From NCBI RefSeq assembly GCF_902833045.1, contig NZ_CADFDU010000005.1:310583-374582 (forward strand): 64,000 nt of DNA, in the 5' to 3' direction. Shown here in pieces: positions 6,731 through 47,216 of the stretch (position 1 is its first letter; each line of letters begins with the position of its first letter). Below the pieces are notes generated by a model. It made no database searches and had not been told where the DNA came from. It saw only the letters and a list, made by a program, of their open reading frames with translations. The position numbers were made by a program, and so were the translations under genes. The DNA comes from Burkholderia sp. BCC0322 (GTDB lineage: Bacteria > Pseudomonadota > Gammaproteobacteria > Burkholderiales > Burkholderiaceae).

Positions 6731-9700
6731 ATGAACAAGTCGTTCAAGTCGATCTGGAACGAAGCATTGGGAGCCTGGGTTGCGGCTTCGGAGCTTGATC
6801 GCGCGCGCGGAAAGCGCGTCGCGTCGTCGCGTGGCACGCCGGCGCGTGCCATGGACGGAGGAGTCGCGGCCTGCGCGGGCGCGCCTTCGGCCCCGTCGCT
6901 CAGGCGGCTCACCGTGCTGATGGCGTCAGCGTATCTCGCGCTGTTCCATGCCGGCGCGCACGCGCAGTACCAGCCGGATGGCGGCTCGGCTACCGGCGGT
7001 GTCACGTCGATCGCGATCGGCGTCGGTTCGAGTGCCGCGCAGCAGAATTCCACGGCGCTGGGCAACCTTTCGACGGCGCAGGGCTTGTCGGCCACGGCGC
7101 TCGGCCCGGGTGCGCATGCGATGGCGGACGGTTCGACGGCCGTCGGCATCAACGCGCAGGCGACCGGCGTCAACAGTACATCGATGGGCGTGCAGGCGAT
7201 CGGGTCGGGCAACTACGCGGTCGCGCTCGGCAACCAGTCGAATGCGACGCAAACCGGATCGGTGGCGCTGGGCAGCGGGTCGTCCGCAACCGGCGTGTCG
7301 GCCATCGGGCTCGGCAACAATGCGACGGCTTCCGGCCAGTATGCCGCCGCGCTGGGCCTCGGGGCCGTCTCGTCCGGCATTGCCAGCGTCGCGCTCGGCT
7401 ATTCGTCGCAAGCCATCAATCAAGGCGCGATCGCGCTCGGCAATCAGTCGACGAGTTCGGGCGCGGCCGGGGTTGCCGTGGGGAGCGGTGCGCTGGCGAC
7501 CGGCAATTCCGGCGTCGCGATGGGCGTCAATGCCGGCGCGAAAGGCGCGACGTCGATCGCGATCGGCTGGGGCGGGACAGCCGGCGTACCGGGTTCGGGC
7601 ACGCAGTCGCTCGGCACCAGTTCGATCGCGCTGGGCTCGAAAACGACGGCAGGCGCCGACAACGCCCAGGCGTACGGCTTGAGCGCCAATGCGTCGGGTG
7701 TCAGTTCCGTTGCGATGGGCGTTCAGTCGACGGCGACGCAGCAGTTTGCGGTCGCGCTCGGCGATCTTGCGCTCGCGACCGGCGTGTCGGCGACTGCATT
7801 GGGCTCGGGTGCGACGGCGTCAGCCACGAACGCGACGGCCATCGGCATCAACAGCGTCGCGGCGGCGGCTTCCACCGTGGCGATCGGCGACAGCAACTCG
7901 GTCGCGGCCGCGGCGGGGGCGGGCTCGATTGCCGCCGGCAACAACTCGAAGGTGCTCGGCGGTATCGGCGCCGTCGCGCTCGGCGCGGGCCAGACGGTCA
8001 GCGGCAACGGCGCGGTGGCGATCGGCGATCCCAGTACCGCGATCGGCACCGGCGCGGTCACGGCCGGTTCGAACAACACGGCGAACGGCGACGGCGCGGT
8101 GGCGATCGGCAATTCGAACAACGCGCAGGGCGCCGGCTCGCTCGCGCTCGGCAACACGTCGACGGCCGCGGCTGCCGGTGCGGTGGCGTTCGGTGCATCG
8201 GCGGTGGCGAACAATACCGGCGATGTCGCGCTCGGCTCGGGCTCGACGACGGCCGCGCCGAATCCGACGGCAAGCGCGACGATCGGCGGCGTGACTTACA
8301 CGTTCAAAGGCACGACGCCGGCGAGCGTCGTCAGCGTCGGCGCGGCGGGCACCGAGCGCCAGATCACCAATGTCGCGGCCGGGCGCATCAACGCCGCGAG
8401 CACGGATGCGATCAACGGGTCGCAGCTCGATGCGACGAACCAGGCGGTGAATTCGCTGTCGACGTCGACGGCGTCGAGCGTCGGTTCGTTGTCGACGGGG
8501 GTGTCGTCGTTGTCGACCGGGTTGTCGTCGGCCAACAGCTCGATCACGTCGCTTTCCACGTCGGCTTCGACGGGTATCAGCTCGTTGTCGACGGGGTTGA
8601 GCTCGACCAGCAGCGCCGTCACGTCGTTGTCGACGTCCGCATCGACGGGCCTGTCGTCGGCCAATAGTGCGATCACGTCGCTGTCCACGTCGACTTCGAC
8701 CGGCATCGGTTCGCTGTCGACGGGGTTGAGTTCGACCAACAGCGCGGTGACGTCGTTGTCGACTTCGACGTCGACCGGCATCAGCTCGTTGTCGACGGGC
8801 TTGAGTTCGACCAACAGTTCGGTGACGTCGCTGTCGACATCCACGTCGACCGGATTGTCGTCCGCCAATAGCGCCATCACGTCGTTGTCGACTTCGACGT
8901 CGACGGGCATCACCTCGCTGTCGACGGGGCTGAGTTCGACCAACAGCGCGGTGACGTCATTGTCGACCTCCACGTCGACCGGATTGTCGTCGGCCAACAG
9001 CGCGATCACGTCGTTGTCGACTTCGACGTCGACGGGCATCACCTCGTTGTCGACGGGGCTGAGTTCGACCAACAGCGCGGTCACGTCGCTGTCGACCTCC
9101 ACGTCGACCATCGTCGGTTCGCTGTCCACGGGGTTGAGTTCGACGAACAGTGCGGTGACGTCGTTGTCGACCTCTACGTCGACGATCGTCGGTTCGCTGT
9201 CCACGGGGCTGAGTTCGACCAACAGCGCGGTGACGTCGCTATCGACGTCCACGTCGACGATCGTCGGTTCGCTGTCCACGGGGCTGAGCTCGACCAACAG
9301 CACGGTGACGTCGCTGTCCACGTCGACGTCGACCAGCATCAACTCGCTGTCCACGGGACTGAGCTCGACGAACAGCGCGGTGACGTCGTTGTCGACCTCG
9401 ACCTCGACGATCGTCGGTTCGTTGTCCACCGGCGTCGTATCGCTGTCCACCGGCCTGAGCACGACCAACAGCAACGTCACGTCGCTGTCGACCGCGACAT
9501 CGACGAGCATCGGTTCGCTGTCGACCGGGCTCAGTTCGACGACCAGCTCGATCGCGTCGCTGTCGACTTCGACCTCGACGACCGTCGGCTCGCTGTCCAC
9601 CGGGCTGTCGAGCACGAACAGCAACTTGACGTCGCTGTCCACCGCGACATCGACGGGCATCGGTTCGCTGTCGACCGGCCTCAGCTCGATCGCCAGCAAC

Positions 9701-11452
9701 AACACCAACCTCGGCAACAGCACGGCGGGCGCGATCGGCGGCGGGGCCACCTACGATCCGACGACCGGGAAGATTTCCGCGCCGTCGTACGTGACGTACA
9801 ACAGCGACGGTTCGACGACGATCAACAACAACGTCGGCTCGGCGATCGACAACATCAACGCGAACGGCATCAAGTATTTCCACGCGAACTCGACCGCACC
9901 GGACAGCCAGGCGCTCGGGCTCGACAGCGTCGCGATCGGCCCGAACGCGGTCGCGAAGGTGGACGGCAGCATCGCGCTCGGCGCCGGCTCGGTGTCCGAT
10001 CGCGCGACGGTGCCGGCCTCCGGCGTGATCCGCAACGGCAGCGCATCGATTCCGTTCAACACGACCGACCAGACGTTGCTGGGCGCGGTGTCGGTCGGCG
10101 ACGCCGCCAGCAAGACGTATCGCCAGATCACCAACGTCGCGGACGGCACCGGGCAGCAGGACGCCGTGACCGTGCGGCAACTGGCCGGCGCGTTGCAGTC
10201 GTTCGCGGTCACGAGCCAGAAGTACTTCCACGCGAACTCGACGGCGGTGGATTCGCTCGCGGTAGGCGCGGATTCGGTCGCGGTCGGCCCGACGACGGTC
10301 GTCAACGGCGATAACGGCGTGGGCATCGGCAACGGCGCGATCGTCGACGCCACCGCGCCGGGCGGCGTGGCGATCGGACAGGCGGCCAGCGCCGCGCAGG
10401 CCGACGCGCTCGCGCTCGGCAGCGGCGCGACGGCAACCGGCGCGCAGTCGGTTGCGCAGGGCGCCAACGCGGTCGCGGCCAGCGTGGGCAGCGTCGCGCT
10501 CGGATCGGGCGCGCACAGCACGGCGACCGATGCGCTCGCGCTCGGCGCCGGCGCGTCGGCGACCTATGCGAACAGCGTCGCGCTCGGCGCGGGGTCGCTG
10601 ACGACGGTCGGCGCGCAGACGAACTACATCGCGTACGGCCTGAGCAGCCCGCAGTCGTCGGCCGGCGAGGTCAACGTCGGCAACCGGCAGATCACCGGCC
10701 TCGCGGCCGGCAAGAACGGCACCGACGCGGTGAACGTGTCGCAACTCGACTCGGTCGCCAACCAGTTGACGACGCTGATCACCCAGCGCACGTCCAACCT
10801 CGGCGGCTCGTACACGACGAATCCGGCCGGCACGAACCTGCCGCCGGGCTCGACGGGGGCGAACTCGTCGGCGGGCGGCTCGGGGGCGGTCGCGTCGGGC
10901 TCGAACAGCACGGCGGTCGGCAACGGGGCGCTGGCGTCCGGCAACGGGTCGACCGCGATCGGCGTCGGCTCGAGCGCGACGGGCAGCAATTCGGCCGCGA
11001 TCGGCACGGGCAGCAACGACGGCGGCCGCTCGAACGTCGTCGCCGTGGGCTCGGCGGATTCGGCGCGGCAGGTCGTCAACGTCGCGGCCGGCACGCAGGG
11101 CACCGACGCGGTCAACGTGAACCAACTGAACGCGAGCGTGGGCAATACGCTGTCGCAGGCGAACAGCTACACGGACGGCCAGGTCGCCAGCCTGCGCAAC
11201 AGCCTCGACAGCTACCGCCGCGACGCGGATGGCGGCACGGCGACGGCGATGGCCGTGGCCGGCCTGCCGCAACCGTCCGGGCCCGGCAAGAGCATGGTCG
11301 CGCTGGCCGGCAGCGTGTATCGCGGCCAGTCCGGGCAGGCGCTCGGCATTTCGACGATCTCGGAGAACAACCACTGGGTCTACAAGGCGGCCGTCTCGAC
11401 CAACACGCGTGGCACGTATGGCGCGGTGGTCGGTGCCGGGTATCAGTGGTGA
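6731..11452 (+). CDS. Trimeric autotransporter adhesin (YadA/Hia type)
   Basis: 1573-residue outer-membrane adhesin secreted by the type V c route. ATG 6731 is preceded by GAGGGAAG at 6718-6725. It begins with an extended signal peptide region (residues 1-24, 'MNKSFKSIWNEALGAWVAAS') and a hydrophobic core near 60-75, with likely cleavage after AHA (78). Residues about 90-520 are YadA/Hia head repeats of about 14 residues ('AxALGxxAxAxGxxSVA'). A neck-like segment ('QITNVAAGRINAASTDAINGSQL') lies near 545-567. Residues about 575-990 are a long Ser/Thr stalk. A second head set with 'KYFHANSTA' segments follows, then the C-terminal anchor (about 1467-1573) with four beta strands ending in 'VVGAGYQW', whose terminal aromatic residue is expected for BAM insertion. 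Likely role: adhesion, serum resistance or biofilm formation. Confidence 0.93.
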   Translation: MNKSFKSIWNEALGAWVAASELDRARGKRVASSRGTPARAMDGGVAACAGAPSAPSLRRLTVLMASAYLALFHAGAHAQYQPDGGSATGGVTSIAIGVGSSAAQQNSTALGNLSTAQGLSATALGPGAHAMADGSTAVGINAQATGVNSTSMGVQAIGSGNYAVALGNQSNATQTGSVALGSGSSATGVSAIGLGNNATASGQYAAALGLGAVSSGIASVALGYSSQAINQGAIALGNQSTSSGAAGVAVGSGALATGNSGVAMGVNAGAKGATSIAIGWGGTAGVPGSGTQSLGTSSIALGSKTTAGADNAQAYGLSANASGVSSVAMGVQSTATQQFAVALGDLALATGVSATALGSGATASATNATAIGINSVAAAASTVAIGDSNSVAAAAGAGSIAAGNNSKVLGGIGAVALGAGQTVSGNGAVAIGDPSTAIGTGAVTAGSNNTANGDGAVAIGNSNNAQGAGSLALGNTSTAAAAGAVAFGASAVANNTGDVALGSGSTTAAPNPTASATIGGVTYTFKGTTPASVVSVGAAGTERQITNVAAGRINAASTDAINGSQLDATNQAVNSLSTSTASSVGSLSTGVSSLSTGLSSANSSITSLSTSASTGISSLSTGLSSTSSAVTSLSTSASTGLSSANSAITSLSTSTSTGIGSLSTGLSSTNSAVTSLSTSTSTGISSLSTGLSSTNSSVTSLSTSTSTGLSSANSAITSLSTSTSTGITSLSTGLSSTNSAVTSLSTSTSTGLSSANSAITSLSTSTSTGITSLSTGLSSTNSAVTSLSTSTSTIVGSLSTGLSSTNSAVTSLSTSTSTIVGSLSTGLSSTNSAVTSLSTSTSTIVGSLSTGLSSTNSTVTSLSTSTSTSINSLSTGLSSTNSAVTSLSTSTSTIVGSLSTGVVSLSTGLSTTNSNVTSLSTATSTSIGSLSTGLSSTTSSIASLSTSTSTTVGSLSTGLSSTNSNLTSLSTATSTGIGSLSTGLSSIASNNTNLGNSTAGAIGGGATYDPTTGKISAPSYVTYNSDGSTTINNNVGSAIDNINANGIKYFHANSTAPDSQALGLDSVAIGPNAVAKVDGSIALGAGSVSDRATVPASGVIRNGSASIPFNTTDQTLLGAVSVGDAASKTYRQITNVADGTGQQDAVTVRQLAGALQSFAVTSQKYFHANSTAVDSLAVGADSVAVGPTTVVNGDNGVGIGNGAIVDATAPGGVAIGQAASAAQADALALGSGATATGAQSVAQGANAVAASVGSVALGSGAHSTATDALALGAGASATYANSVALGAGSLTTVGAQTNYIAYGLSSPQSSAGEVNVGNRQITGLAAGKNGTDAVNVSQLDSVANQLTTLITQRTSNLGGSYTTNPAGTNLPPGSTGANSSAGGSGAVASGSNSTAVGNGALASGNGSTAIGVGSSATGSNSAAIGTGSNDGGRSNVVAVGSADSARQVVNVAAGTQGTDAVNVNQLNASVGNTLSQANSYTDGQVASLRNSLDSYRRDADGGTATAMAVAGLPQPSGPGKSMVALAGSVYRGQSGQALGISTISENNHWVYKAAVSTNTRGTYGAVVGAGYQW
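8455..9690 (+). repeat. Coding tandem repeats of the adhesin stalk (SLST modules)
   Basis: About 1.2 kb of imperfect tandem DNA repeats inside the autotransporter gene. They encode alternating 14-residue units (SLSTGLSSTNSAVT type) and 11-residue units (SLSTSTSTIVG type), so a full period is 25 residues or 75 bp. More than a dozen copies are visible. Near-identical copies such as those between 9060 and 9300 make copy-number change by recombination or slippage plausible. Confidence 0.85.
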
Positions 11453-11487
11453 GCCGCGGCCCGTGCCGTTTCCCTTCCATTCAGACA

Positions 11488-11892
11488 ATGGCAAACATGA
11501 ACGCAAATCTTGCAAAGTTCGCGGCCGCGGCGCTGCTCGCCGCCGCCGGCCTGACCGGATGCGCCACGCAGCAGGGCGATCCGCCGTTCCCGTCGGCCGA
11601 CACGGCCACGCTGCCCGAGGGGACGTACCCGAATCTCGCCAACCTGGCGCGGGTCCAGCCGGGCGTGACGAAGAACCAACTGTACGAACTGCTTGGCCCG
11701 CCGCATTTCCACGAGTGGATCTTCCACGTGCGGACGTGGAACTACCTGTTCCAGTTCCGCGACGCCGGCAAGGTCGCGACCTGTCAGTACCAGATCCAGT
11801 TCGATTCGGATAACCGCGTCGTGAAGACGCGGTGGGACAAGCCGGAGTGCGAGGCCTTTGGCGGGAAGGCGGCGGGCGGCACGGAAGGCTGA
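11488..11892 (+). CDS. Small outer-membrane lipoprotein, SmpA/BamE (OmlA)-like
   Basis: 134-residue lipoprotein starting 36 bases after the adhesin stop. A signal peptide ends in the lipobox 'LTGC', so the mature protein would be acylated on Cys near residue 24. The body contains 'VQPGVTKNQLYELLGPPHF', the BamE/SmpA fold signature seen in assembly lipoproteins, and a beta-rich remainder. An alternative ATG at 11497 would shorten it by three residues; an upstream GTG at 11446 would overlap the adhesin. Placement right behind a trimeric autotransporter suggests a helper for its outer-membrane assembly, like other adhesin-linked lipoproteins; that link is inferred. A hairpin follows at 11902. 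Confidence 0.82.
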   Translation: MANMNANLAKFAAAALLAAAGLTGCATQQGDPPFPSADTATLPEGTYPNLANLARVQPGVTKNQLYELLGPPHFHEWIFHVRTWNYLFQFRDAGKVATCQYQIQFDSDNRVVKTRWDKPECEAFGGKAAGGTEG

Positions 11893-11955: not shown

Positions 11956-12303
11956 ACCGTATTGCCGTGCACGGCCTTGTATGCGCATGAACACGGTTTC
12001 CCGGTCATCACCAGCTCGTTGGGCATCTCGCGGTGGAAGAGCATGCAACAGATCAACGATTACGGTGTGCGCGCGGCCTCGCCTTATCCCGACATGCTGT
12101 ATTGGGAATAAAACTGGCGCAAAGGCGGCGGCTCGGCGCGCATGATCGAGATTCGCAAGCGGGAAAATTTCTACCAGCAAGAACATTGCGGCTGCGTCTA
12201 CTCGCTACGCGACACCAATCAGCATCGCCTGGAAAGCGGCCGCGAACGCATTCAGCCGGGCGTGAAGTTCTACGGAGACGACGACTCCGCGATCGAGTCC
12301 TGA
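11956..12303 (+). pseudogene. queH: queH (epoxyqueuosine reductase) remnant with in-frame stop
   Basis: The translation contains '[10 protein letters not shown]', '[16 protein letters not shown]', '[14 protein letters not shown]', '[24 protein letters not shown]', which I recognise as the C-terminal half of QueH (DUF208), the enzyme of the last queuosine step. The frame is interrupted by TAA at 12109-12111, exactly between 'YWE' and 'NWRKGGG', and otherwise runs intact to TGA at 12303. The N-terminal half, with the catalytic CCxPC motif, is missing. The 5' border lies near 11960, just past the hairpins of the previous gene. This is a truncated, nonsense-mutated relic; a functional copy must be elsewhere if the cell makes queuosine. 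Confidence 0.8.
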
Positions 12304-13039
12304 GCTTGCCATCCGTGCCCGGATCAACAAGCGGAACGGCTTTAAGGCAGCGTGCTCGAACAAAACCCCGGTCGCGCTGCGTACCGTCCGACGCATGTTC
12401 CGGATCGCCAGGCTGCAGGCCTTTGGCACGGCGCTGGCGCATCGGAAGCGACTCGGTACCGACCTGCGCCCCTTGTCTGCTGCGATTCAGCGCAAGATCG
12501 AACCAGCTATCGGCTACTTCATTCGTCGTTCGTCGCCCCTCGCCCCCGCAGTGAGGGACGTCTCTTTCACGCACGCTTCATTTCGCGGTTCGCCGCGCGA
12601 TTCGATCCGAAGCAAGCGAATCCGCTTGTCGCGCGACGCGTTCGCCACGCGCGCTCCATGACTTTGCCGTTGGCCGAGCGCCGGAGCGGTCAACCTCCCG
12701 CAAGCAAGGAAGGGCCCTGAGGCCGATGTTCCTGGACGCGAGAGCGTCGGGACATGAAGCGTCGCATGACCGCGAAGCTGCCTCCATCAGGCCATGACGG
12801 GGCGAATGGAGAAGGGCGAGTGCGCGAGAAAACCAACTGGCACGTCGAATCATGAACGTGGCTAATGGATTGATGAGAGAAATTCACTTTTTTTCATGGA
12901 TGGCCCGGCATAGAATTTCGACTTGAACGCCGATGTGAAACATATTTCTGAGAAAAAATCAGAAAATAAAATCGGACAGCATTGAAAAGTCACGGCCTGA
13001 ATTCAGGCTTTATCTCGGAAATCAGGGTGCCAGATCAAA
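12304..13039. other. Non-coding stretch upstream of mesX
   Basis: No supported gene. The first 540 bases are high GC with short overlapping frames on both strands and no recognisable protein. From about 12850 the composition falls (ttcactttttttcatgg, gagaaaaaatcagaaaataaaa), probably the promoter region of the mesX operon. I looked for a methionine or cobalamin riboswitch here and could not make one out. Confidence 0.45.
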
Positions 13040-14023
13040 ATGAGTCAGGATTTTACATTTGCCATCAAGCGCATTTGTTTCGATGAAGACTATCGTCCGT
13101 CAGACAGCACGCGTATCACGACCAACTTCGCCAACTTGGCCAGAGGCGCGAATCGCCGAGAGAACTTGCGCAATACATTCAGGATGATCGACAATCGTTT
13201 CAATGCCCTGGCGCATTGGGACAATCCCGCAGGCGATCGCTATGCCGTCGAACTTGAAATCATTTCCGTTGAAATGAGCATTGACGGCGAGAGCAGCGGC
13301 AGTTCGCTCCCCTTGATCGAGATGTTGAAAACCAATATTGTCGATCGGAAGACCCATGAGCGCATCGAAGGCATCGTAGGGAATAATTTCTCCTCTTACG
13401 TGCGGGATTATGACTTCAGCGTTCTACTGCTGGATCACACCAGGAACCAGTCCGAGTTCAGCACGCCGGAGAATTTTGGAGATCTGCACGGGAAGCTGTT
13501 CAAGTGCTTCGTGAATTCAAGCGCCTACCGGGCCAATTTCAGCAAGCAACCCGTTATCTGCCTGAGCGTGTCGAGTAGCAGGAACTATTATCGAACCGCC
13601 AATCAGCATCCGGTATTGGGTATTGAATACGAGCAGGACGAATACTCGCTGACCGACGAATATTTCAAAAAAATGGGGTTGAAGGTTCGCTATTTCATGC
13701 CCCCGAATAGTGTTGCACCTTTGGCATTCTATTTTTCCGGCGATTTGCTGGGCGACTACAGCGATCTCGAGCTTATCGGCACCATCAGCACGATGGATAC
13801 GTTCCAGAAGATCTACCGGCCCGAGATTTACAACGCGAATTCAGCAGCAGGAAAATCCTATCGGCCAAGTCTGAAGCATCAGGATTTTTCATTGACCCGA
13901 ATTGTTTACGATCGGGAAGAACGCAGCCGGCTGGCTATCGAGCAGGGAAGGTTTGTCGAGGAGCACTTCATCAAACCGTACCACGCTGTCCTTGAGCAGT
14001 GGTCCGCCAACTACGCGCTTTGA
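13040..14023 (+). CDS. mesX: MesX, DUF1852 putative oxygenase for methionine synthesis
   Basis: 327-residue protein of the DUF1852 family, recognised from its N-terminus ('FTFAIKRICFDEDYRPSDSTRITTNFANLARG') and the motif 'VCLS/ICLSVSSSRNYYRTANQHPVLGIEY'. DUF1852 proteins, now called MesX, are required together with MesD for an oxygen-dependent, folate-independent methionine synthase described by genetics (recalled from the literature). No signal peptide or membrane segment; cytosolic. The GTG-started mesD gene begins 27 bases after its stop, forming an operon. Third positions are far richer in A/T than in surrounding genes, which suggests acquisition from another lineage or low adaptation. 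Mechanism of MesX is unknown. Confidence 0.88.
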   Translation: MSQDFTFAIKRICFDEDYRPSDSTRITTNFANLARGANRRENLRNTFRMIDNRFNALAHWDNPAGDRYAVELEIISVEMSIDGESSGSSLPLIEMLKTNIVDRKTHERIEGIVGNNFSSYVRDYDFSVLLLDHTRNQSEFSTPENFGDLHGKLFKCFVNSSAYRANFSKQPVICLSVSSSRNYYRTANQHPVLGIEYEQDEYSLTDEYFKKMGLKVRYFMPPNSVAPLAFYFSGDLLGDYSDLELIGTISTMDTFQKIYRPEIYNANSAAGKSYRPSLKHQDFSLTRIVYDREERSRLAIEQGRFVEEHFIKPYHAVLEQWSANYAL

Positions 14024-14050
14024 TTCATCAAAAAACCACGGTCACCTATT

Positions 14051-15085
14051 GTGAAGAAATTGTTCCCGACTTCAACTGCCGGCAGCTTGCCCAAACCCTC
14101 CTGGCTCGCACAACCCGAGACGCTTTGGTCGCCCTGGAAGCTACAGGATGAGGGGTTGATCGAAGGCAAACGAGATGCTTTGCGCTTGTCATTGCAAGAG
14201 CAGCAACATGCGGGCATCGATATCGTCAGTGATGGCGAGCAAACGCGCCAGCATTTTGTGACGACGTTCATCGAGCACCTCAGCGGCGTTGATTTTGCGA
14301 ACCGCAAGACCGTTCGAATCCGTGATCGCTATGATGCAAGCGTGCCGACGGTCGTCGATGCCGTTGCGCGACAAAAGCCGGTTTTCGTCGAAGATGCCAG
14401 GTTCCTGCGCCAGCAGACCACGCAACCCATCAAATGGGCGCTGCCGGGCCCCATGACCATGATCGATACGCTCTATGACGATCATTACAAAAGTCGCGAG
14501 AAACTGGCCTGGGAGTTCGCAAAGATCCTGAACCAGGAAGCCAGGGAGCTGGAGGCGGCCGGCGTCGACATCATTCAATTCGACGAGCCCGCGTTCAATG
14601 TTTTCTTCGATGAAGTGAATGATTGGGGCGTGGCGACCCTGGAGAGGGCCATAGAAGGTCTCAAGTGCGAGACTGCCGTGCATATTTGCTATGGCTATGG
14701 CATCAAGGCCAATACGGATTGGAAAAAGACGCTGGGGTCGGAGTGGCGCCAATACGAAGAAGCCTTTCCCAAGCTGCAAAAATCCAGTATCGACATGGTT
14801 TCGCTGGAATGCCACAACTCTCGTGTTCCAATGGATCTGATCGAACTCATTCGAGGTAAAAAGGTCATGGTGGGGGCCATTGATGTGGCAACCAATACCA
14901 TTGAAACGCCCGAGGAAGTCGCCGACACCTTGCGGAAGGCGCTTCAGTTTGTCGATGCCGACAAGCTCTATCCTTGCACCAACTGCGGCATGGCGCCCTT
15001 GTCTCGTGACGTCGCGAGAGGCAAGCTGAATGCTTTAAGTGCGGGCGCAGAAATCGTCCGAAGAGAACGCTCGAACGCGTTCTGA
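14051..15085 (+). CDS. mesD: MesD, core-MetE folate-independent methionine synthase
   Basis: 344-residue protein equal to only the C-terminal catalytic domain of cobalamin-independent MetE (about 750 residues). It transfers a methyl group to homocysteine. Zinc ligands of MetE are all in place: His211 and Cys213 ('VHICYG'), Glu253 ('SLECH') and Cys312 ('CTNCGM'); the homocysteine-site pair Asp178-Glu179 ('QFDEPAF') is also present. Absence of the N-terminal domain and of the folate site matches MesD, whose methyl donor is not 5-methyl-tetrahydrofolate and is still uncertain. GTG start (14051) chosen because 'KKLFPTSTAGSLPKPSWLA' is the conserved beginning. Cotranscribed with mesX. Confidence 0.88.
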   Translation: MKKLFPTSTAGSLPKPSWLAQPETLWSPWKLQDEGLIEGKRDALRLSLQEQQHAGIDIVSDGEQTRQHFVTTFIEHLSGVDFANRKTVRIRDRYDASVPTVVDAVARQKPVFVEDARFLRQQTTQPIKWALPGPMTMIDTLYDDHYKSREKLAWEFAKILNQEARELEAAGVDIIQFDEPAFNVFFDEVNDWGVATLERAIEGLKCETAVHICYGYGIKANTDWKKTLGSEWRQYEEAFPKLQKSSIDMVSLECHNSRVPMDLIELIRGKKVMVGAIDVATNTIETPEEVADTLRKALQFVDADKLYPCTNCGMAPLSRDVARGKLNALSAGAEIVRRERSNAF

Positions 15086-15129
15086 GCGAAAGTCGATGCG
15101 ATGCTCGGCAGGATCGAAGGCGATGGGTT

Positions 15130-15158
15130 TCAGGGAGTTTATTAGCAGGACTCCCTGA
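15130..15158 (+). other. Inverted repeat between mesD and the flavin reductase
   Basis: Perfect 9 bp arms TCAGGGAGT (15130-15138) and ACTCCCTGA (15150-15158) around an 11-base loop, 45 bases after the mesD stop. No T-run follows, so it may be a weak terminator, an mRNA-stabilising hairpin or an operator. Confidence 0.4.
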
Positions 15159-15341
15159 ATCTGCTGAAATACGCCGCCCGGGTTGCCCGAGTATCCAGTT
15201 GAAGCAAGCATCGTTGTCGACCCCGATCAAGCCGGCAAGCGCAAGCGGGCCTGAAGGTTGTTTCCGATCGAAACGGGTCGGGTGACGCCGCAGAAGAGGG
15301 GTTTGCCCCGTTCGAGCCGCCTCCGGCATTCAGTATCTACC

Positions 15342-15851
15342 ATGTCACTTTCCAGCACGGCCATCGAGCCATCGAGCTTTCGCGAAGCGCTCGGGCACTA
15401 CGCATCCGGCATCACGGTCATTGCCTCACGCGTTGAGGGTGAGCCGATCGGCTTCACTTGCCAGTCGTTCCATAGCGTGTCGATGAACCCGCCGCTGGTG
15501 TCGTTCAGCGTCATGTCCGGTTCGGCCAGCTATCCCAGGATTCGCCAGGCAGGTCGATTCGTCGTCAATATCCTGTCAGAGGGGCAAGTCAGTATTTCTA
15601 ATCAATTCGCCAGGCGAGGCACGGACAAGTGGCATGGAGTCGAATGGCAGGAATCGCCGCTGGGCAACCCGATCATTGTCGGCAGCCTCCACTGGCTTGA
15701 TTGCGAAATCCACGCCGAACACGCCGCGGGTGATCACCTGATCGTGATTGGTGAAGTGAAGGCGTTGAACCGGCAGGAAGCGGCTGCTGCGCAGCCATTG
15801 CTGTATTTCAAAGGGCAATATCGCAACATCGCTGCGCATGGCGCGGTTTGA
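15342..15851 (+). CDS. Flavin reductase family protein (FMN-binding split barrel)
   Basis: 169-residue NAD(P)H:flavin oxidoreductase-like protein. Family motifs: 'FREALGHYASGITVIASR' at the N-terminus, 'GFTCQSFHSVSMNPPLVSFSV' (about 43-63, flavin-binding) and 'HAEHAAGDHLIVIGEV' near the C-terminus. ATG 15342 gives the standard family length. It lies 256 bases after mesD on the same strand. Such reductases supply reduced flavin to a partner oxygenase; since MesX is a proposed oxygenase and MesD needs oxygen, delivery of reduced FMN/FAD to MesX is the natural hypothesis. The higher GC of this gene than mesX/mesD leaves open that it is an older neighbour. Confidence 0.85.
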   Translation: MSLSSTAIEPSSFREALGHYASGITVIASRVEGEPIGFTCQSFHSVSMNPPLVSFSVMSGSASYPRIRQAGRFVVNILSEGQVSISNQFARRGTDKWHGVEWQESPLGNPIIVGSLHWLDCEIHAEHAAGDHLIVIGEVKALNRQEAAAAQPLLYFKGQYRNIAAHGAV

Positions 15852-16170
15852 GCGTTGACTTTCGTTGCCCGCTTCGACGCGTCTATCGATTGAAAGCGTG
15901 ATCATTGCCGTGAATTCGCCTGGCACCGGCGCAAACGCGGCACTGCACCAATCCGTCAAATGGCGGGCCGGGTGGCGATCACGCCGGGTCATCCGGCGGC
16001 GTTGATGACCTGTCTCGGATTCGAGGGAATCAGGAAGGAGGACGTCGGTTGCCGGCCGCTGCTTGACTGTCGAGTCCTCAGGTTTGATTCGACGCAAGCG
16101 CGGCGCGATTGCGTCTCGCGTGCCCGCAATGGCGAGTACACTGAAAATGCCTTGGAAACAGGAGAATGCG
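15852..16170. other. Intergenic region, no gene seen
   Basis: 319 bases without a convincing coding frame. The only clear signal is the AGGAG ribosome-binding site at 16160-16164 belonging to the next gene. Confidence 0.4.
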
Positions 16171-16488
16171 ATGATCGACGCTGGCCCCCAAAGAACCTTC
16201 CGAGGGCTGCCGCTGACCGTGGAGCAGGACGCGGAAGTGAGGCACTACATCAAGGATCGAACTCGGCGCGGGCTGCCATGGGACACGCCGGAGTTGAGCG
16301 CGATGCTCAAGGACATGCTGCATCCCCCGGGTGACGGCGACGGTGATCCGGCTTCCGCGGCAGACGAAACCCGGGCGGCCGCCGAGCGCGCGACGGCTTC
16401 GGTTGACGAAGCGATGGACCCCATCGAGGCGAACGAGGAGTGGCATGCGGCCATGGAGTCGGAGGGCATGAAAGGGCCGAGACGATAG
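16171..16488 (+). CDS. Conserved-looking hypothetical protein, 105 aa
   Basis: Unrecognised small cytosolic protein. ATG 16171 follows a good AGGAG site at 16160-16164, which decides the start. The N-terminal part ('RTFRGLPLTVEQDAEVRHYIKDRTRRGLPWDTPELSAMLKDML', about 7-50) looks like a compact helical domain. The second half is acidic, Ala/Glu-rich and probably disordered. Codon use is typical of the genome, which supports a real gene. No function can be assigned. Confidence 0.65.
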   Translation: MIDAGPQRTFRGLPLTVEQDAEVRHYIKDRTRRGLPWDTPELSAMLKDMLHPPGDGDGDPASAADETRAAAERATASVDEAMDPIEANEEWHAAMESEGMKGPRR

Positions 16489-41192: not shown

Positions 41193-41312
41193 GTCCGTCG
41201 AAATCGAGCCGCACGGGTACGACCTTGCGGCACGTGCGCCGCGCCTGCGGGCATCCGCCGCAGCGTTCCGGCACCGTGAAATCCGGCTAACTCATTCAGA
41301 CGGGCAGGCAAA

Positions 41313-44300
41313 TTGTCATCCAGCAATCTGATCCGCATTCGCGGAGCACGTCAGCACAACCTCAAGAATCTTGATCTCGACCTGCGCACCGGCGAGATGA
41401 CGGTCGTCACCGGCCCGTCGGGCTCCGGCAAGTCGAGTCTCGTGTTCGACACGCTGTACGCTGAAGGGCAGCGGCGCTACGTCGAGACGTTCAGCGCGTA
41501 CGCGCGGCAGTTCCTCGACCGGATGGATCGCCCGCAGGTCGAGCGCGTCGACGGCGTGCCGCCCGCGATCGCGATCGACCAGACCAACCCGGTCCGTAGT
41601 TCGCGCTCGACCGTCGGCACGATGACCGAGCTGAACGATCACCTGAAGCTGCTGTACGCGCGTGCGGCCGAGCTGTTCGACCGCAAGACCGCGCGGCAGG
41701 TGCGGCACGACACGCCGGAGACGATCTACGCGGATCTCGTCGCGCGCACCCAGGCGGACGATCCGCGCGTCGTCGTCACGTTCCCGGTCGAGCTGCCGGA
41801 AGCGGTGTCCGACGAAGAAATTGCACAGTGGCTGTCGGCGAGCGGCTATACGCGTGTGCAGGCGCAGCGCGAGGTCGCGTCGCCCACCGGGCCGCGCAAG
41901 GTGCTCGACGTGGTGGCCGACCGCTTCCGCGTGCAGGGCGCCGACAAGGTGCGCGTCGTCGAGGCGATCGAGGCGTCGCTGAAGCGCGGCGGCGGGCGCG
42001 TGAACGTGTACGTGCTCGCGGCGGAGCCGGAAAGCCCGGATGGCGCAGCCGCCGAGCCGCAGGTGTGGCGCTTCTCCACCGGGCTCCACGATCCCGACAG
42101 CGACCTGCGCTACGCGGAGCCGCAGGCGGCGCTGTTCTCGTTCAATTCGGCGTACGGCGCGTGCGAAACCTGCCGCGGCTTCGGCCGCGTGATCGGCGTC
42201 GATCTCGGCCTCGTGATCCCCGACGCGCGCAAGACGCTGCGTGGCGGCGCAATCAAGCCGATGCAAACGCCTGCCTGGAAGGAGTGCCAGGACGACCTGA
42301 TGCGCTACGCGGCGAAAGCCGGCATCCCGCGCGACACGCCGTGGGCCGAGCTGTCGGACGCCGAGCGCGACTGGGTCGTGAACGGGTCGCCGGACTGGAA
42401 CGGCAAGTGGCAGAGCCAGTGGTACGGCGTGAAGCGCTTCTTCGGCTATCTCGAGTCGAAAGCGTACAAGATGCATATCCGCGTGCTGCTGTCGAAATAT
42501 CGCAGCTACACGCCGTGTGACGTGTGCGGCGGCGCGCGCCTGAAGACGGAATCGCTGCAATGGCGGCTCGGCTCGAAGGAAAACGCCGACGGCGTGCTCG
42601 CGCCCGCCGGCCGTTTCATGCCGCGCGGCGTCGACTGGAGCCGCGCGCAGCTCGAAGCGCTGCCGGGCCTGACCGTGCACGACCTGATGCTGCTGCCGAT
42701 CGAGCGCATCCGCCGCTTCTTCGATGAAATCTCATTGCCGAGCGCGCTGCTCGACGATGCGCTGAAGCTGCTGCTCGCCGAGGTGCGCACGCGCCTGAAA
42801 TACCTGTGCGACGTGGGGCTTGGCTACCTGACGCTCGACCGGCAGAGCCGCACGCTGTCGGGCGGCGAGGTGCAGCGGATCAACCTGACGACGGCACTCG
42901 GCACGTCGCTCACGAAAACCCTGTTCGTGCTCGACGAACCGAGCATCGGGCTGCATCCGCGCGATCTCACGCGGATCGTCGAGGCGATGCAGCGGTTGCG
43001 CGACGCGGGCAATACGCTGGTCGTGGTCGAACACGATCCGTCGGTGATGCTCGCGGCCGACCGGCTGATCGACATGGGGCCCGGCCCGGGCGAGCGCGGC
43101 GGCACGATCGTCTATGACGGCACGCCGGGCGACATCCGGTCGGCGCACACGCTGACGGGCGAGTATCTCGGCGGCCGCAAGCATGTCGCGCACGCGTCGA
43201 ACTGGGCGCGCCGGGTGGTCGATGCAAACACGCCGCGCATCGTGCTCGAGGGCGCGAGCGAACACAACCTGCGCGACGTGACGGTCGAGATTCCGCTGCA
43301 GCGGCTCGTCTGCGTGACGGGCGTGTCGGGGTCCGGCAAGTCCACGCTGCTGCAGGACGTGCTCTATCCGGCGATGGCCCGGCACCACGGCAAGGCGACC
43401 GAGTCGCCGGGCGCGTACCGCGGCCTCACGGGCGCCGACCAGGTGGGCGACGTCGTGTTCGTCGACCAGTCGCCGATCGGCAAGACCACGCGTTCGAACC
43501 CGGCGAGCTACGTCGGCGCGTTCGACGAGATCCGCAAGCTGTTCGCGAAGGCGCCGCTCGCGCTGCAACGCGGGTACGGCGCCGGCACTTTCAGCTTCAA
43601 CTCGGGCGACGGCCGTTGCCCGACCTGCGGCGGCTCGGGCTTCGAGCACATCGAGATGCAGTTCCTGAGCGACGTCTACCTGCGCTGCCCGGACTGCGAC
43701 GGCAGCCGCTACCGCGCCGAGATTCTCGAAGTGCGCATCGAGCGCAACGGCCGCGCGTTGAGCATCGCCGACGTGCTCGACCTCACGGTCAGCGAAGCGG
43801 CCGCGTTCTTCGCGGCCGACGCCGAGGTGCTGCGCGTGCTGCAGCCGATCGTGGACGTCGGCCTCGAATACGTGAAGCTCGGCCAGCCGGTGCCGACGCT
43901 GTCGGGCGGCGAAGCGCAACGCCTGAAGCTGGCCGGCTTCCTCGCCGAATCGGCGGCAGCCGTCAACGGGCGCCGGGTCGTCACGGAAGAGGCGCGCATC
44001 GCGCGTGCGAAGCTGTTCATGTTCGACGAGCCGACCACCGGGCTGCATTTCGACGACATCGCGAAGCTGATGCAGGCGTTCGGCAAGCTGCTGGCGGCCG
44101 GCCATTCGCTGATCGTGATCGAGCACAACCTCGACGTGATCCGCGCGGCCGACTGGCTGATCGATCTCGGGCCGGAAGGCGGCGACGGCGGCGGTCGGGT
44201 GCTGTGCGCGGGCACGCCGGACGAGGTGAAGGCGTGCGCCGAATCGCATACCGGCGTGGCGCTGTTGCAATACGACCGCGCGATGGATGCCGAGCTGGCG

Positions 44301-47216
44301 GTCGCCGACGAAGGCAAGCCGCTGCAGGCGGTGCTGAACGCGGCGCGCGAGCGCCGTGCGATCGAGGGCGAGGACGTCGTGCGGATCGTCAACGCGCGCG
44401 AGCACAACCTGAAATCGCTCGACGTCGATATCCCGCACGGCAAGTTCAACGTGATCACCGGCGTGTCGGGTTCCGGCAAGTCGACGCTCGCGTTCGACAT
44501 CCTGTTCCACGAAGGCCAGCGCCGCTACCTCGAATCGCTGAATGCGTATGCGCGCTCGATCGTGCAGCCGGCCGGCCGCCCCGAAGTCGACGCGGTGTAC
44601 GGTATTCCGCCGACGGTGGCGATCGAGCAGCGGCTGTCGCGCGGCGGGCGCAAGAGCACGGTCGCGACCACGTCCGAGGTCTGGCACTTCCTGCGGCTGC
44701 TGTACGTGAAGCTCGGCCTGCAGCATTGCATCCACGACGGCACGCCCGTCACGTCGCAGTCTGTCGAATCGATCGCCGCACAGTTGCTGCGCGATCATCG
44801 CGGCGAGCACGTCGGGTTGCTCGCGCCGCTCGTCGTCAACCGCAAGGGCGTCTATACGGATCTCGCGAAGTGGGCGAAGGCGCGCGGCAGCACGCATCTG
44901 CGGGTCGACGGCGAGTTCGTGCCGGTCGATCCGTGGCCGAAGCTCGACCGTTTCCGCGAGCACACGATCGAGTTGCCGGTGGCCGATATCGTCGTGTCGC
45001 CGGACAACGAGGCCGAACTGCGGCGCGTGCTCGACGAGACGCTCGAGCTCGGCAAGGGCGTGATGCACCTGCTCGCGCCGCTCGACGGGCTGCACGATGC
45101 GATGCAGAACGATCATTCGACCGCGCGCGTCGGCACGGTCAAGGTGCTGTCGGTGAAGCGCGCGTGCCCGGTGTGCGGCACGAGCTACCCGGAGTTGGAT
45201 CCGCGGATGTTCTCGTACAACAGCAAGCACGGGTGGTGCACGACCTGCGTCGGCACCGGCGTCACGCTCACGCGCGAACAGCGCGCGGCGTACGACGACA
45301 CGGTGCTCGCCGGGGATGATCGAGGCCGCGAGCAGACGCTGCCGTCCGACGAGCAGGAACCGGAAGGTGTGGGCAACGAGCCATGCCCGGATTGCAACGG
45401 TACGCGGCTGAACCCGTCCGCGCGCGCGGTCACCTTCGACGCGCATCCGATCGTCGAGGTTGCGCAATGGACGGTGTCCGACACGCGGCGCTGGATCGAC
45501 GGGCTGGAACTGACGGGGCGCGATGCGCAGATCGCACGCGACATCGTCAGCGAGATCGGCAGCCGCCTCGCGTTTCTGGAGGAAGTCGGGCTCGGTTACC
45601 TGAGCCTCGATCGCGCGGCGCCGAGCCTGTCGGGCGGCGAAGCGCAGCGCATCCGGCTCGCCGCGCAGCTCGGCAGCAACCTGCAAGGGGTCTGCTACGT
45701 GCTCGACGAACCGACGATCGGCCTGCATCCGCGCGACAACCAGATCCTGCTGGACGCGTTGCGCAAGCTGGGCGACAAGGGCAATACGCTCGTCGTCGTC
45801 GAGCATGACGAGGACACCATTCGCCGGGCCGATCACATCATCGACGTTGGCCCGGGCGCGGGCAAGCGCGGCGGCACGCTGGTCGCGCAGGGCGCGGTCG
45901 CGGATCTGGCCGCGCAGGCCGATTCGGTGACGGGGCGCCTGCTCGCGCAGCCAATGACGCACCCGCTCCAGCCGCGCCGCAGTGTGAGCCTGCCGGGGAG
46001 GAAGGGTGGCGCCACGGTGCCGGAAGCCTGGCTGACCGTGCATGGCGCGCGGCTGCACAACCTGCGTGACGTCACGGTCGGCATTCCGCTCGCGCGACTC
46101 GTCGCGGTGACGGGCGTGAGCGGCTCGGGCAAGTCGACGCTCGCGCGCGACGTGCTGATGACGAACCTGCTCGACGCGGTCGGCCGCTCGGTGCTGTCGT
46201 CGCCGGCCACGCGCCGCGCACGCAAGGCCGCGCAGCAGGACACGCCGGGCACTAACCGCCGTTCGAGCGTGCTCGCGCGCAGCGCACCGCGGCCGTCGCT
46301 GAACGTCACGCATGCGTGGCAGGGCTGCGAGTCGCTGAGCGGCTGGGAGCAGATCGATCGCGTGCTGGAAGTCGACCAGACGCCGATCGGCAAGACGCCG
46401 CGTTCTTGCCCGGCCACCTATATCGGCGTGTGGGACACGATCCGCAAGCTGTTCGCCGATACGCTCGAAGCGCGGGCGCGCGGCTACACGGCGTCGCGTT
46501 TCTCGTTCAATACCGGCGACGGGCGCTGCCCCGCATGCGAAGGGCAAGGCGTGCGCACGATCGGCATGAGCTTCCTGCCCGACGTGAAGGTGCCGTGCGA
46601 CGTGTGCCACGGGCAGCGCTTCAACCCGGAAACGCTCGCCGTCACGTGGCGCGGCCGGAACATCGGCGACGTGCTGACGATGGAGATCGACGAGGCGGTG
46701 GCGTTCTTCGCGCCGATCTCGAACATCGCGCATCCGCTGCAGCTGATGAAGGATGTCGGCCTCGGCTACCTGACGCTCGGCCAGCCGTCGCCGACGCTGT
46801 CGGGCGGCGAGGCGCAGCGCATCAAGCTCGTCACCGAGCTGACGAAGGTGCGCGACGACATCACGCGGCGTGGCCAGAAGGCGCCGCATACGCTGTATGT
46901 GCTCGACGAACCGACGGTCGGCCTGCACATGGCGGACGTCGCGAAGCTGATTCGCGTGCTGCACCGGCTCGTCGATGCGGGGCACAGCGTCGTCGTGATC
47001 GAGCACGACCTCGACGTGATCGCGGAAGCCGACTGGATCATCGATCTCGGGCCGGAAGGCGGCGTGGGCGGCGGCACGATCGTCGCGGCGGCGCCGCCGG
47101 AAGCGCTCGTGCAGGTGAGCGCGAGCCACACCGGGCAGGCGCTCAAGCCGGTGCTGGCGCGAACGGGGACGGACGAGGGGGAAGCCGAGCACGAAGGGGA
47201 GGCGCGGGTAGGCTGA
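41313..47216 (+). CDS. Double-length UvrA-like excinuclease subunit (four ATPase cassettes)
   Basis: 1967-residue fusion of two UvrA units. Four Walker A motifs ('GPSGSGKSS' near 34, 'GVSGSGKST' near 669, 1049 and 1601), four ABC signatures (LSGGE at 515, 863, 1439 and 1829), and four Walker B-DEP segments (first Asp541) show four complete cassettes. Zn-ribbon pairs occur in both halves ('CPTCGGSGFEH', 'CPDCDGS', 'CPACEGQG', 'CDVCHGQ'). Unit 1 is about 1-1005 and unit 2 about 1010-1967. TTG 41313 start is chosen from the conserved 'LIRIRGARQHNLKNLDLDL'. It should bind damaged DNA like UvrA or act in drug resistance like UvrA2. Controlled by the LexA box at 41171. Confidence 0.9.
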   Translation: MSSSNLIRIRGARQHNLKNLDLDLRTGEMTVVTGPSGSGKSSLVFDTLYAEGQRRYVETFSAYARQFLDRMDRPQVERVDGVPPAIAIDQTNPVRSSRSTVGTMTELNDHLKLLYARAAELFDRKTARQVRHDTPETIYADLVARTQADDPRVVVTFPVELPEAVSDEEIAQWLSASGYTRVQAQREVASPTGPRKVLDVVADRFRVQGADKVRVVEAIEASLKRGGGRVNVYVLAAEPESPDGAAAEPQVWRFSTGLHDPDSDLRYAEPQAALFSFNSAYGACETCRGFGRVIGVDLGLVIPDARKTLRGGAIKPMQTPAWKECQDDLMRYAAKAGIPRDTPWAELSDAERDWVVNGSPDWNGKWQSQWYGVKRFFGYLESKAYKMHIRVLLSKYRSYTPCDVCGGARLKTESLQWRLGSKENADGVLAPAGRFMPRGVDWSRAQLEALPGLTVHDLMLLPIERIRRFFDEISLPSALLDDALKLLLAEVRTRLKYLCDVGLGYLTLDRQSRTLSGGEVQRINLTTALGTSLTKTLFVLDEPSIGLHPRDLTRIVEAMQRLRDAGNTLVVVEHDPSVMLAADRLIDMGPGPGERGGTIVYDGTPGDIRSAHTLTGEYLGGRKHVAHASNWARRVVDANTPRIVLEGASEHNLRDVTVEIPLQRLVCVTGVSGSGKSTLLQDVLYPAMARHHGKATESPGAYRGLTGADQVGDVVFVDQSPIGKTTRSNPASYVGAFDEIRKLFAKAPLALQRGYGAGTFSFNSGDGRCPTCGGSGFEHIEMQFLSDVYLRCPDCDGSRYRAEILEVRIERNGRALSIADVLDLTVSEAAAFFAADAEVLRVLQPIVDVGLEYVKLGQPVPTLSGGEAQRLKLAGFLAESAAAVNGRRVVTEEARIARAKLFMFDEPTTGLHFDDIAKLMQAFGKLLAAGHSLIVIEHNLDVIRAADWLIDLGPEGGDGGGRVLCAGTPDEVKACAESHTGVALLQYDRAMDAELAVADEGKPLQAVLNAARERRAIEGEDVVRIVNAREHNLKSLDVDIPHGKFNVITGVSGSGKSTLAFDILFHEGQRRYLESLNAYARSIVQPAGRPEVDAVYGIPPTVAIEQRLSRGGRKSTVATTSEVWHFLRLLYVKLGLQHCIHDGTPVTSQSVESIAAQLLRDHRGEHVGLLAPLVVNRKGVYTDLAKWAKARGSTHLRVDGEFVPVDPWPKLDRFREHTIELPVADIVVSPDNEAELRRVLDETLELGKGVMHLLAPLDGLHDAMQNDHSTARVGTVKVLSVKRACPVCGTSYPELDPRMFSYNSKHGWCTTCVGTGVTLTREQRAAYDDTVLAGDDRGREQTLPSDEQEPEGVGNEPCPDCNGTRLNPSARAVTFDAHPIVEVAQWTVSDTRRWIDGLELTGRDAQIARDIVSEIGSRLAFLEEVGLGYLSLDRAAPSLSGGEAQRIRLAAQLGSNLQGVCYVLDEPTIGLHPRDNQILLDALRKLGDKGNTLVVVEHDEDTIRRADHIIDVGPGAGKRGGTLVAQGAVADLAAQADSVTGRLLAQPMTHPLQPRRSVSLPGRKGGATVPEAWLTVHGARLHNLRDVTVGIPLARLVAVTGVSGSGKSTLARDVLMTNLLDAVGRSVLSSPATRRARKAAQQDTPGTNRRSSVLARSAPRPSLNVTHAWQGCESLSGWEQIDRVLEVDQTPIGKTPRSCPATYIGVWDTIRKLFADTLEARARGYTASRFSFNTGDGRCPACEGQGVRTIGMSFLPDVKVPCDVCHGQRFNPETLAVTWRGRNIGDVLTMEIDEAVAFFAPISNIAHPLQLMKDVGLGYLTLGQPSPTLSGGEAQRIKLVTELTKVRDDITRRGQKAPHTLYVLDEPTVGLHMADVAKLIRVLHRLVDAGHSVVVIEHDLDVIAEADWIIDLGPEGGVGGGTIVAAAPPEALVQVSASHTGQALKPVLARTGTDEGEAEHEGEARVG

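Follow-up and report, generated by a model that had tools for sequence, protein, structure and literature searches.

A mesX-mesD methionine synthase locus within a probable decayed vitamin B12-bypass island of Burkholderia sp. BCC0322

The 64,000-nucleotide stretch of Burkholderia sp. BCC0322 analyzed here (the window) carries mesX and mesD, the two genes of an oxygen-dependent methionine synthase, followed by a flavin reductase gene. With a probability of roughly 0.7, we read this locus as a member of the MesX-MesD system lying inside a decayed copy of a mobile island that bypasses vitamin B12 (cobalamin). In its fullest form, the island would hold a metR-like gene, queH, mesX, mesD, a flavin reductase gene, and a gene for a protein resembling methylenetetrahydrofolate reductase (MTHFR). 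It would provide a back-up for two cobalamin enzymes, both largely retained by the hosts: MesXD would stand in for MetH, and QueH, which makes queuosine without B12, for QueG. The window copy appears to have lost the left part of the island (the metR-like gene and the first half of queH), while mesX, mesD, and the reductase gene remain intact.

MesD and MesX were named by Price et al. in 2021 (PMC7857596). In the passages of that paper that bear on the system, the S. koreensis genes mesX and mesD rescue E. coli deletions of metE and metF when the two are combined, neither gene sufficing by itself; the rescue required air but no cloned reductase, and methionine synthesis is described as oxygen-dependent and independent of B12 and MetF. 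MesX was proposed there to be the oxygen-using partner, perhaps with reduced flavin, because a flavin reductase is often found nearby. The interpretation reached by an earlier, sequence-only reading of the window, reductase included, is therefore already published, and its gene identities and oxygen dependence agree with these passages. No later biochemistry of MesX was found in our literature search.

The window locus resembles the published system in that the genes are intact, adjacent, and in the same order, MesD lacks the folate domain, and a flavin reductase is near, as the same paper reports for Acinetobacter baylyi. It differs in lying within a compact block that also carries a remnant of queH. 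A term search of the main text of PMC7857596 returned no queuosine, MsuE, riboswitch, PF12225, or MetR, "metrics" being the sole word-start match for the last.

Genes and Proteins of the Locus

All three genes are on the plus strand. The mesX gene (13040..14023), encoding a putative oxygenase partner of family PF08908 (DUF1852), is followed after 27 bp by mesD (14051..15085, GTG start), a core methionine synthase gene without the folate domain, and after a further 256 bp by the flavin reductase gene (15342..15851; PF01613, HsaB/HpaC-like). The grouping of MesX, MesD, and a flavin reductase made in the sequence-only reading is borne out by matches to PF08908, NF006589/PF01717, and PF01613. Its spacing of 256 bases beyond mesD holds with the ATG start at 15342 that we adopted, the mechanical open reading frame beginning at a TTG at 15258. 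A nine-base inverted repeat with an 11-base loop was seen by eye at 15130-15158, between mesD and the reductase gene, which may accordingly be on a transcript separate from mesXD.

MesX (327 aa) matches PF08908 over the full profile with an E-value of 3.4e-187 (621 bits against a cut-off of 25). Among 136 sequences, the window copy included, 91 positions are invariant, and the conserved residues are intact in the window; the lowest identity to the window protein in this collection is 60%, on a Rhodococcus plasmid. The nearest MesX proteins from named genomes are those of Burkholderia aenigmatica (93%) and its sister, and then of B. metallica (91%). Two sets of loci were used for the comparisons below: a close set of 80 loci, with MesX 80-93% identical to that of the window, and a broad set of 43 loci across Pseudomonadota, where MesX was found in 44 of 398 genomes, one of which (G001) was already in the close set. 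Viral contigs searched for MesX relatives gave none that could be confirmed.

MesD (344 aa) adjoins MesX in all 80 close loci. It scores 712 bits against the curated methionine synthase model NF006589 (cut-off 392), and 3rpd is a close solved relative (686 bits). Only the catalytic domain PF01717 was detected, the N-terminal folate domain of MetE not being found. The zinc ligands E253 and C312 align with solved MetE, and H211 and C213 were assigned from the HxCY motif only, because the MetE alignment is shifted there; with this distinction, the four zinc ligands claimed from the sequence are all in place. The reductase matches PF01613 with 151 bits (cut-off 27), and its best solved relative is 3nfw. 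HsaB is its nearest NCBIfam model, at 183 bits, which is under the cut-off of 230.

Island Borders and the queH Remnant

Homology by blastn between the window and mesX loci L001 and L002 (B. aenigmatica and its sister) is confined to a block on the plus strand at 11969..16012, with a short break before the reductase gene and with the flanks unmatched. The right flank at 16086-16487 resembles another B. arboris replicon (L171), not the B. aenigmatica loci.

At the left edge of the block lies a queH remnant (11969..12304, plus strand). The DNA from about 11971 encodes the C-terminal half of QueH, residues 114-222 of 222, with 94% identity to the L001 QueH (tblastn) and one in-frame stop; the first half is gone. 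The piece past the stop matches PF02677 with an E-value of 4e-8. With its frame incomplete, the window copy does not count as a functional QueH. Several relatives have an intact queH at the left edge of the island, often behind a MetR-like LysR gene, the products of which score 205-297 bits with the MetR model, below its cut-off of 382. The broken queH seen at the 5′ flank in the sequence-only reading is real. It was treated there as incidental, but we take it to be part of the island and the most informative clue to it. We rejected the possibility that the remnant is unrelated debris.

Third-position GC is 0.65 in mesX, 0.66 in mesD, and 0.69 in the reductase gene, against 0.90, 0.85, and 0.88 in the neighboring adhesin, tpgA-like, and coxB genes. 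The low values had been noticed for mesX and mesD; the reductase gene is low as well. The mesX block has a lower GC content than the sequence around it in 76 of 77 close loci and 28 of 41 broad loci, three close and two broad loci having been removed by length filters. The foreign look of the DNA is thus supported. In nearly all high-GC hosts, however, the block is low in GC, so that this feature does not by itself date a transfer into the window genome; as a proof of recent transfer into the window genome it was rejected.

Linkage of QueH to B12-Free Methionine Synthases

QueH is described as the cobalamin-independent counterpart of the cobalamin-dependent QueG in the passages of PMC11906303 that treat it. 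The 79 genomes that hold the close loci include 38 with QueH. Both QueH and QueG are present in 27 of them, and in 25 of these 27 a QueH, whole or fragmentary, lies within 5 kb of mesX, against a chance expectation of about 0.04 of 27 (27 × 10 kb/~7 Mb). One of the two exceptions is a contig break, where a MetR-like gene and queH reach the end of one contig (L175) and another (L013) begins 193 bp before mesX. In the second (L172), QueH is found beside metE and a MetR-like gene. QueG is missing or below the cut-off in 11 of the 79 genomes, all of them titled Alcaligenaceae; QueH is present in all 11 and, within the locus sequences available, near mesX in none. A first subset of 49 genomes, picked after seeing which loci have QueH nearby, gave QueH near mesX in 22/24 genomes with QueG vs. 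0/6 without (Fisher p = 4.7e-5), and the other 30 genomes were then added to reach 25/27 and 0/11. The p value carries little weight, as all 11 QueG-less genomes are titled Alcaligenaceae.

QueH copies located away from mesX point in the same direction. In genomes with QueG, the four further copies inspected all adjoin metE (L172, L173, L174, and L183). These are intact in L172 and L183 and fragments in L173 and L174; metE is over the cut-off in L172-L174 and was identified by tblastn (82% identity) in L183. In eight of the 11 QueG-less genomes, the surroundings of QueH were inspected (L184-L191; 8.8-14 kb, about 6 kb on each side and less at one contig end), and neither metE nor mesX nor mesD was beside it in any. 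A QueH that is additional to QueG is thus accompanied by a B12-free methionine synthase, and a sole QueH is not; the genomes of the latter kind form a single bacterial family. QueH is also beside metE, so it is linked to two unrelated routes of B12-free methionine synthesis and not to a single segment. QueH varies in position and orientation beside mesXD, and on the MesX tree, a quick one with many weak forks, its state changes at least 17 times.

Compared with the QueG/QueH pair as known, QueH at mesXD loci is often an extra copy beside QueG, physically tied to a B12-independent methionine synthase; the window QueH is broken. Among the papers listed by our literature search, none names both QueH and MesD. 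Some papers name both QueH and metE, two of which were checked by passages, so that the arrangement of QueH beside metE may have been reported earlier.

Two Families of Flavin Reductase beside mesXD

In the close set, 69 of the 80 loci have a PF01613 reductase gene no more than 5 kb from mesX. Among the 11 others, L021 and L028 end within 220 bp of mesD, and the rest hold at least 3 kb downstream without a reductase. Across the broad set, a PF01613 reductase is near mesX in only 2 of 43 loci. The conserved linkage on which the sequence-only reading depended is therefore found in close relatives and is rare more broadly. A PF01613 reductase as an obligatory third gene was rejected on this count and on the published E. 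coli rescue, and the description of the three window genes as a complete set was too strong, because that rescue, in the passages of PMC7857596, needed no cloned reductase and the PF01613 linkage is rare outside close relatives.

In at least four other broad loci, however, an FMN reductase of the MsuE type, from the unrelated family PF03358, adjoins mesXD. In L140, L142, and L143 its gene stands upstream of mesX, and in L160 it separates mesX from mesD; an Acidovorax plasmid has the order msuE-mesX-mesD, with an MsuE above the TIGR03566 cut-off. Non-adjacent PF03358 proteins are encoded 3-4 kb from mesX in three more genomes (G289, G385, and G387). PF03358 is present in all 43 genomes of the broad set, and E. 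coli, taken as a control, has reductases of both families. On the MesX tree, the reductase types occupy separate places; their state changes at least 18 times, although contig ends or weak forks may account for some of these changes. As two unrelated FMN reductases have been recruited, the case for flavin use is better than a single linked gene would make it, and the MsuE-type reductase beside mesXD is the best new hint that MesX may use reduced flavin.

The locus can be compared with the two-component flavin monooxygenases HpaBC, HsaAB, StyAB, and SsuDE/MsuDE. The window reductase belongs to PF01613, a family that feeds such oxygenases, and at some mesXD loci an MsuE-type reductase replaces the PF01613 type. 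MesX, on the other hand, resembled no known oxygenase component in sequence or predicted fold, a missing match that is not decisive, and its reaction would end in methyl transfer instead of hydroxylation.

One A. baumannii locus has the order mesX-mesD-reductase. In A. baumannii AB5075, B12 lowers mesX (log2 −8.3) together with the flavin reductase ABUW_3196 (log2 −2.5), according to passages of PMC12892962.

Several further arrangements were observed. In 10 of the 43 broad loci (L123, L124, L131, L134, L135, L136, L141, L148, L149, and L152), a gene for a TauE/SafE-type exporter is found no more than 5 kb from mesX, in several arrangements; such a gene is also on the ACNIH1 plasmid. Genome G092 has two mesX-mesD copies: in the intact one, msuE separates mesX from mesD and queH follows downstream, and the second (L161) is decayed. 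The set mesX-mesD-reductase also occurs, amid chromosomal-looking genes, in records named Acinetobacter phage MD-2021a (L170), which are probably host DNA in the assembly.

Other Partners, Plasmids, and Host Enzymes

Searches for MetH, metF, PF12225, and riboswitches covered 49 of the 79 close-set genomes. MetH is retained in all 49 (one match with an in-frame stop), which makes MesXD a back-up and not a replacement. A recurring partner of mesXD is a protein with an MTHFR domain and a cysteine-rich PF12225 domain. PF12225 was detected in 18 of the 49 genomes (one a short match with a stop), in 12 of these within 5 kb of mesX, and an ordinary metF is present in all 49. Over all loci, the MTHFR-like protein is encoded near mesX in 18 of the 80 close ones and in 2 of the 43 broad ones. 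Its MTHFR core keeps residues that appear to correspond to Glu28, Asp120, and Gln183 of E. coli MetF.

The island is also found on plasmids. Among those listed, seven mesX plasmids of the Acinetobacter lwoffii group (H135-H141) have the MTHFR-like gene 2 to 4 kb from mesX. The A. lwoffii plasmid pNL3 carries an integrase gene, the MTHFR-like gene, queH, a hypothetical gene, mesX, mesD, and a flavin reductase gene, and a form of the island is also on the ACNIH1 plasmid. On the Robbsia plasmid p2, the genes are LysR, queH, mesX, mesD, and cobF, with no reductase annotated. In Novosphingobium and Acidovorax plasmids (L167, 8784-12972; L169, 1-4293), the methylcitrate-cycle genes acnD and prpF are next to mesXD; the methylcitrate cycle is also a B12-free alternative route.

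Regulation of mesX

A MetR-box-like site, TGAA-N5-TTCA with one mismatch, is present at 12874..12886 on the plus strand, 166 bp upstream of mesX. Taking TGAA-N5-TTCA as the presumed MetR consensus, we found an exact box in 42 of 135 mesX upstream regions (one of the 136 loci having been dropped), whereas 100 shuffles gave 0.62 on average and never more than 4. If one mismatch is allowed, 88/135 regions contain the box, against a mean of 14.4 (30 shuffles). The nearest GC-matched control window has 32 exact sites and probably overlaps the true upstream region; the next five have 5-8. This enrichment suggests that mesX may be under MetR-like control. In L011 and, below the cut-off, in L004, a nickel/cobalt transporter gene located 3-4 kb from mesX appears to have a cobalamin riboswitch in front of it (contigs matched by coordinates).

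Other Genes in the Window

Directly to the left of the island, at 6731-11892, there is a large gene for a trimeric-autotransporter-like adhesin (identified by eye), and then a TpgA-like gene with a BamE domain. An open frame of about 1979 aa, with a third-position GC of 0.90, is found at 41280-47216.

Discussion

According to the reading that we prefer, MesXD would be an aerobic methionine synthase needing neither cobalamin nor methyl-folate. The zinc site of MesD would methylate homocysteine, while MesX, with O2 and probably reduced flavin mononucleotide (FMNH2) from the flavin reductase, would make or deliver the methyl group. The two-component logic put forward in the sequence-only reading, with MesX using reduced flavin and oxygen, matches the proposal in the passages of PMC7857596 and gains from the MsuE-type linkage. 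The MTHFR-like enzyme may clear methyl-folate, which is usable only by MetH or MetE. In a more elaborate version, which we put forward as tentative but possible, the locus would be a mobile cobalamin-independence island under a MetR-like regulator, MesX would be an FMNH2-dependent oxygenase, and the MTHFR-type enzyme would run in reverse, oxidizing 5-methyl-folate. This would relieve a methyl-folate trap: 5-methyl-folate would pile up because MetH is idle, and MesXD, unlike MetE, could not use it.

A number of observations weigh against one or another part of this reading. Concerning flavin, 37 of the 43 broad loci have no reductase of the PF01613 or MsuE type adjoining mesXD (for PF03358, among the matches listed), and two genomes with mesX have no PF01613 match at an E-value of 0.001. 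A search of solved structures with the single MesX sequence gave nothing at E-values up to 1, and the MesX profile gave four hits only at 0.65-0.89. The predicted model (pLDDT 77.6, from a shallow alignment) likewise found no relative, and no flavoprotein fold was recognized, although a missing match does not amount to a new fold. These points, and the sufficiency of mesX and mesD in E. coli in the passages of PMC7857596, would be expected if MesX were a flavin-free oxygenase, metal-dependent or cofactor-free, with the reductases serving a co-regulated task such as sulfur scavenging or stress. We consider this unlikely: reductases of two unrelated families are repeatedly found beside mesXD, the reductase is lowered along with mesX upon B12 addition in the passages of PMC12892962, and the E. 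coli host has its own reductases of both families.

Concerning the island, the window has no intact queH, MetR-like gene, or MTHFR-like gene beside mesXD. The linked QueH is a fragment in 4 of the 25 genomes (L005, L007, L054, and L055), and the genome of L005 carries another, intact QueH next to metE. Proximity of QueH to mesX holds for 26 of the 80 close loci and for 1 of the 43 broad ones, the linkage being mainly beta/gamma-proteobacterial, and the contrast between genomes with and without QueG comes close to one event in one bacterial family. QueH is also present on many enterobacterial plasmids (99 records of Klebsiella and 62 of Escherichia among 250), and the two Klebsiella QueH plasmids inspected have no mesXD or metE annotated nearby. 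Regarding B12 control, an Rfam scan of the window at gathering scores gave no match, hence no cobalamin riboswitch, and none was directly upstream of mesX among the matches listed for the 49 genomes.

The fragmentary queH copies (the window's included), the plasmids with QueH and no mesXD nearby, and the variable position and orientation of the components could all reflect passenger traffic, in which queH, the MTHFR-like gene, and the reductase gene merely share mobile segments with mesXD and have no common role. This appears distinctly improbable in view of the QueH copies that adjoin metE in all four cases inspected in genomes with QueG and of the repeated QueH state changes on the MesX tree. 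Finally, selection of the same island by nitrous oxide (N2O) or another attack on Co(I) cobalamin, and not by B12 scarcity, is very doubtful, for although N2O inactivates MetH and is tolerated by two strains that have MesD homologues, in passages of PMC13059711, those passages are silent on QueG and N2O, and B12 itself represses mesX in those of PMC12892962.

With the B12-bypass island as the preferred reading, the question of MesX is narrowed to the reductase family that it requires and to FMNH2 as its possible co-substrate. More generally, our results suggest that bacteria may acquire B12 independence as a package and not enzyme by enzyme, a view that bears on B12 cross-feeding, on nitrous oxide tolerance, and on how a folate-independent methionine synthase may avoid folate trapping.

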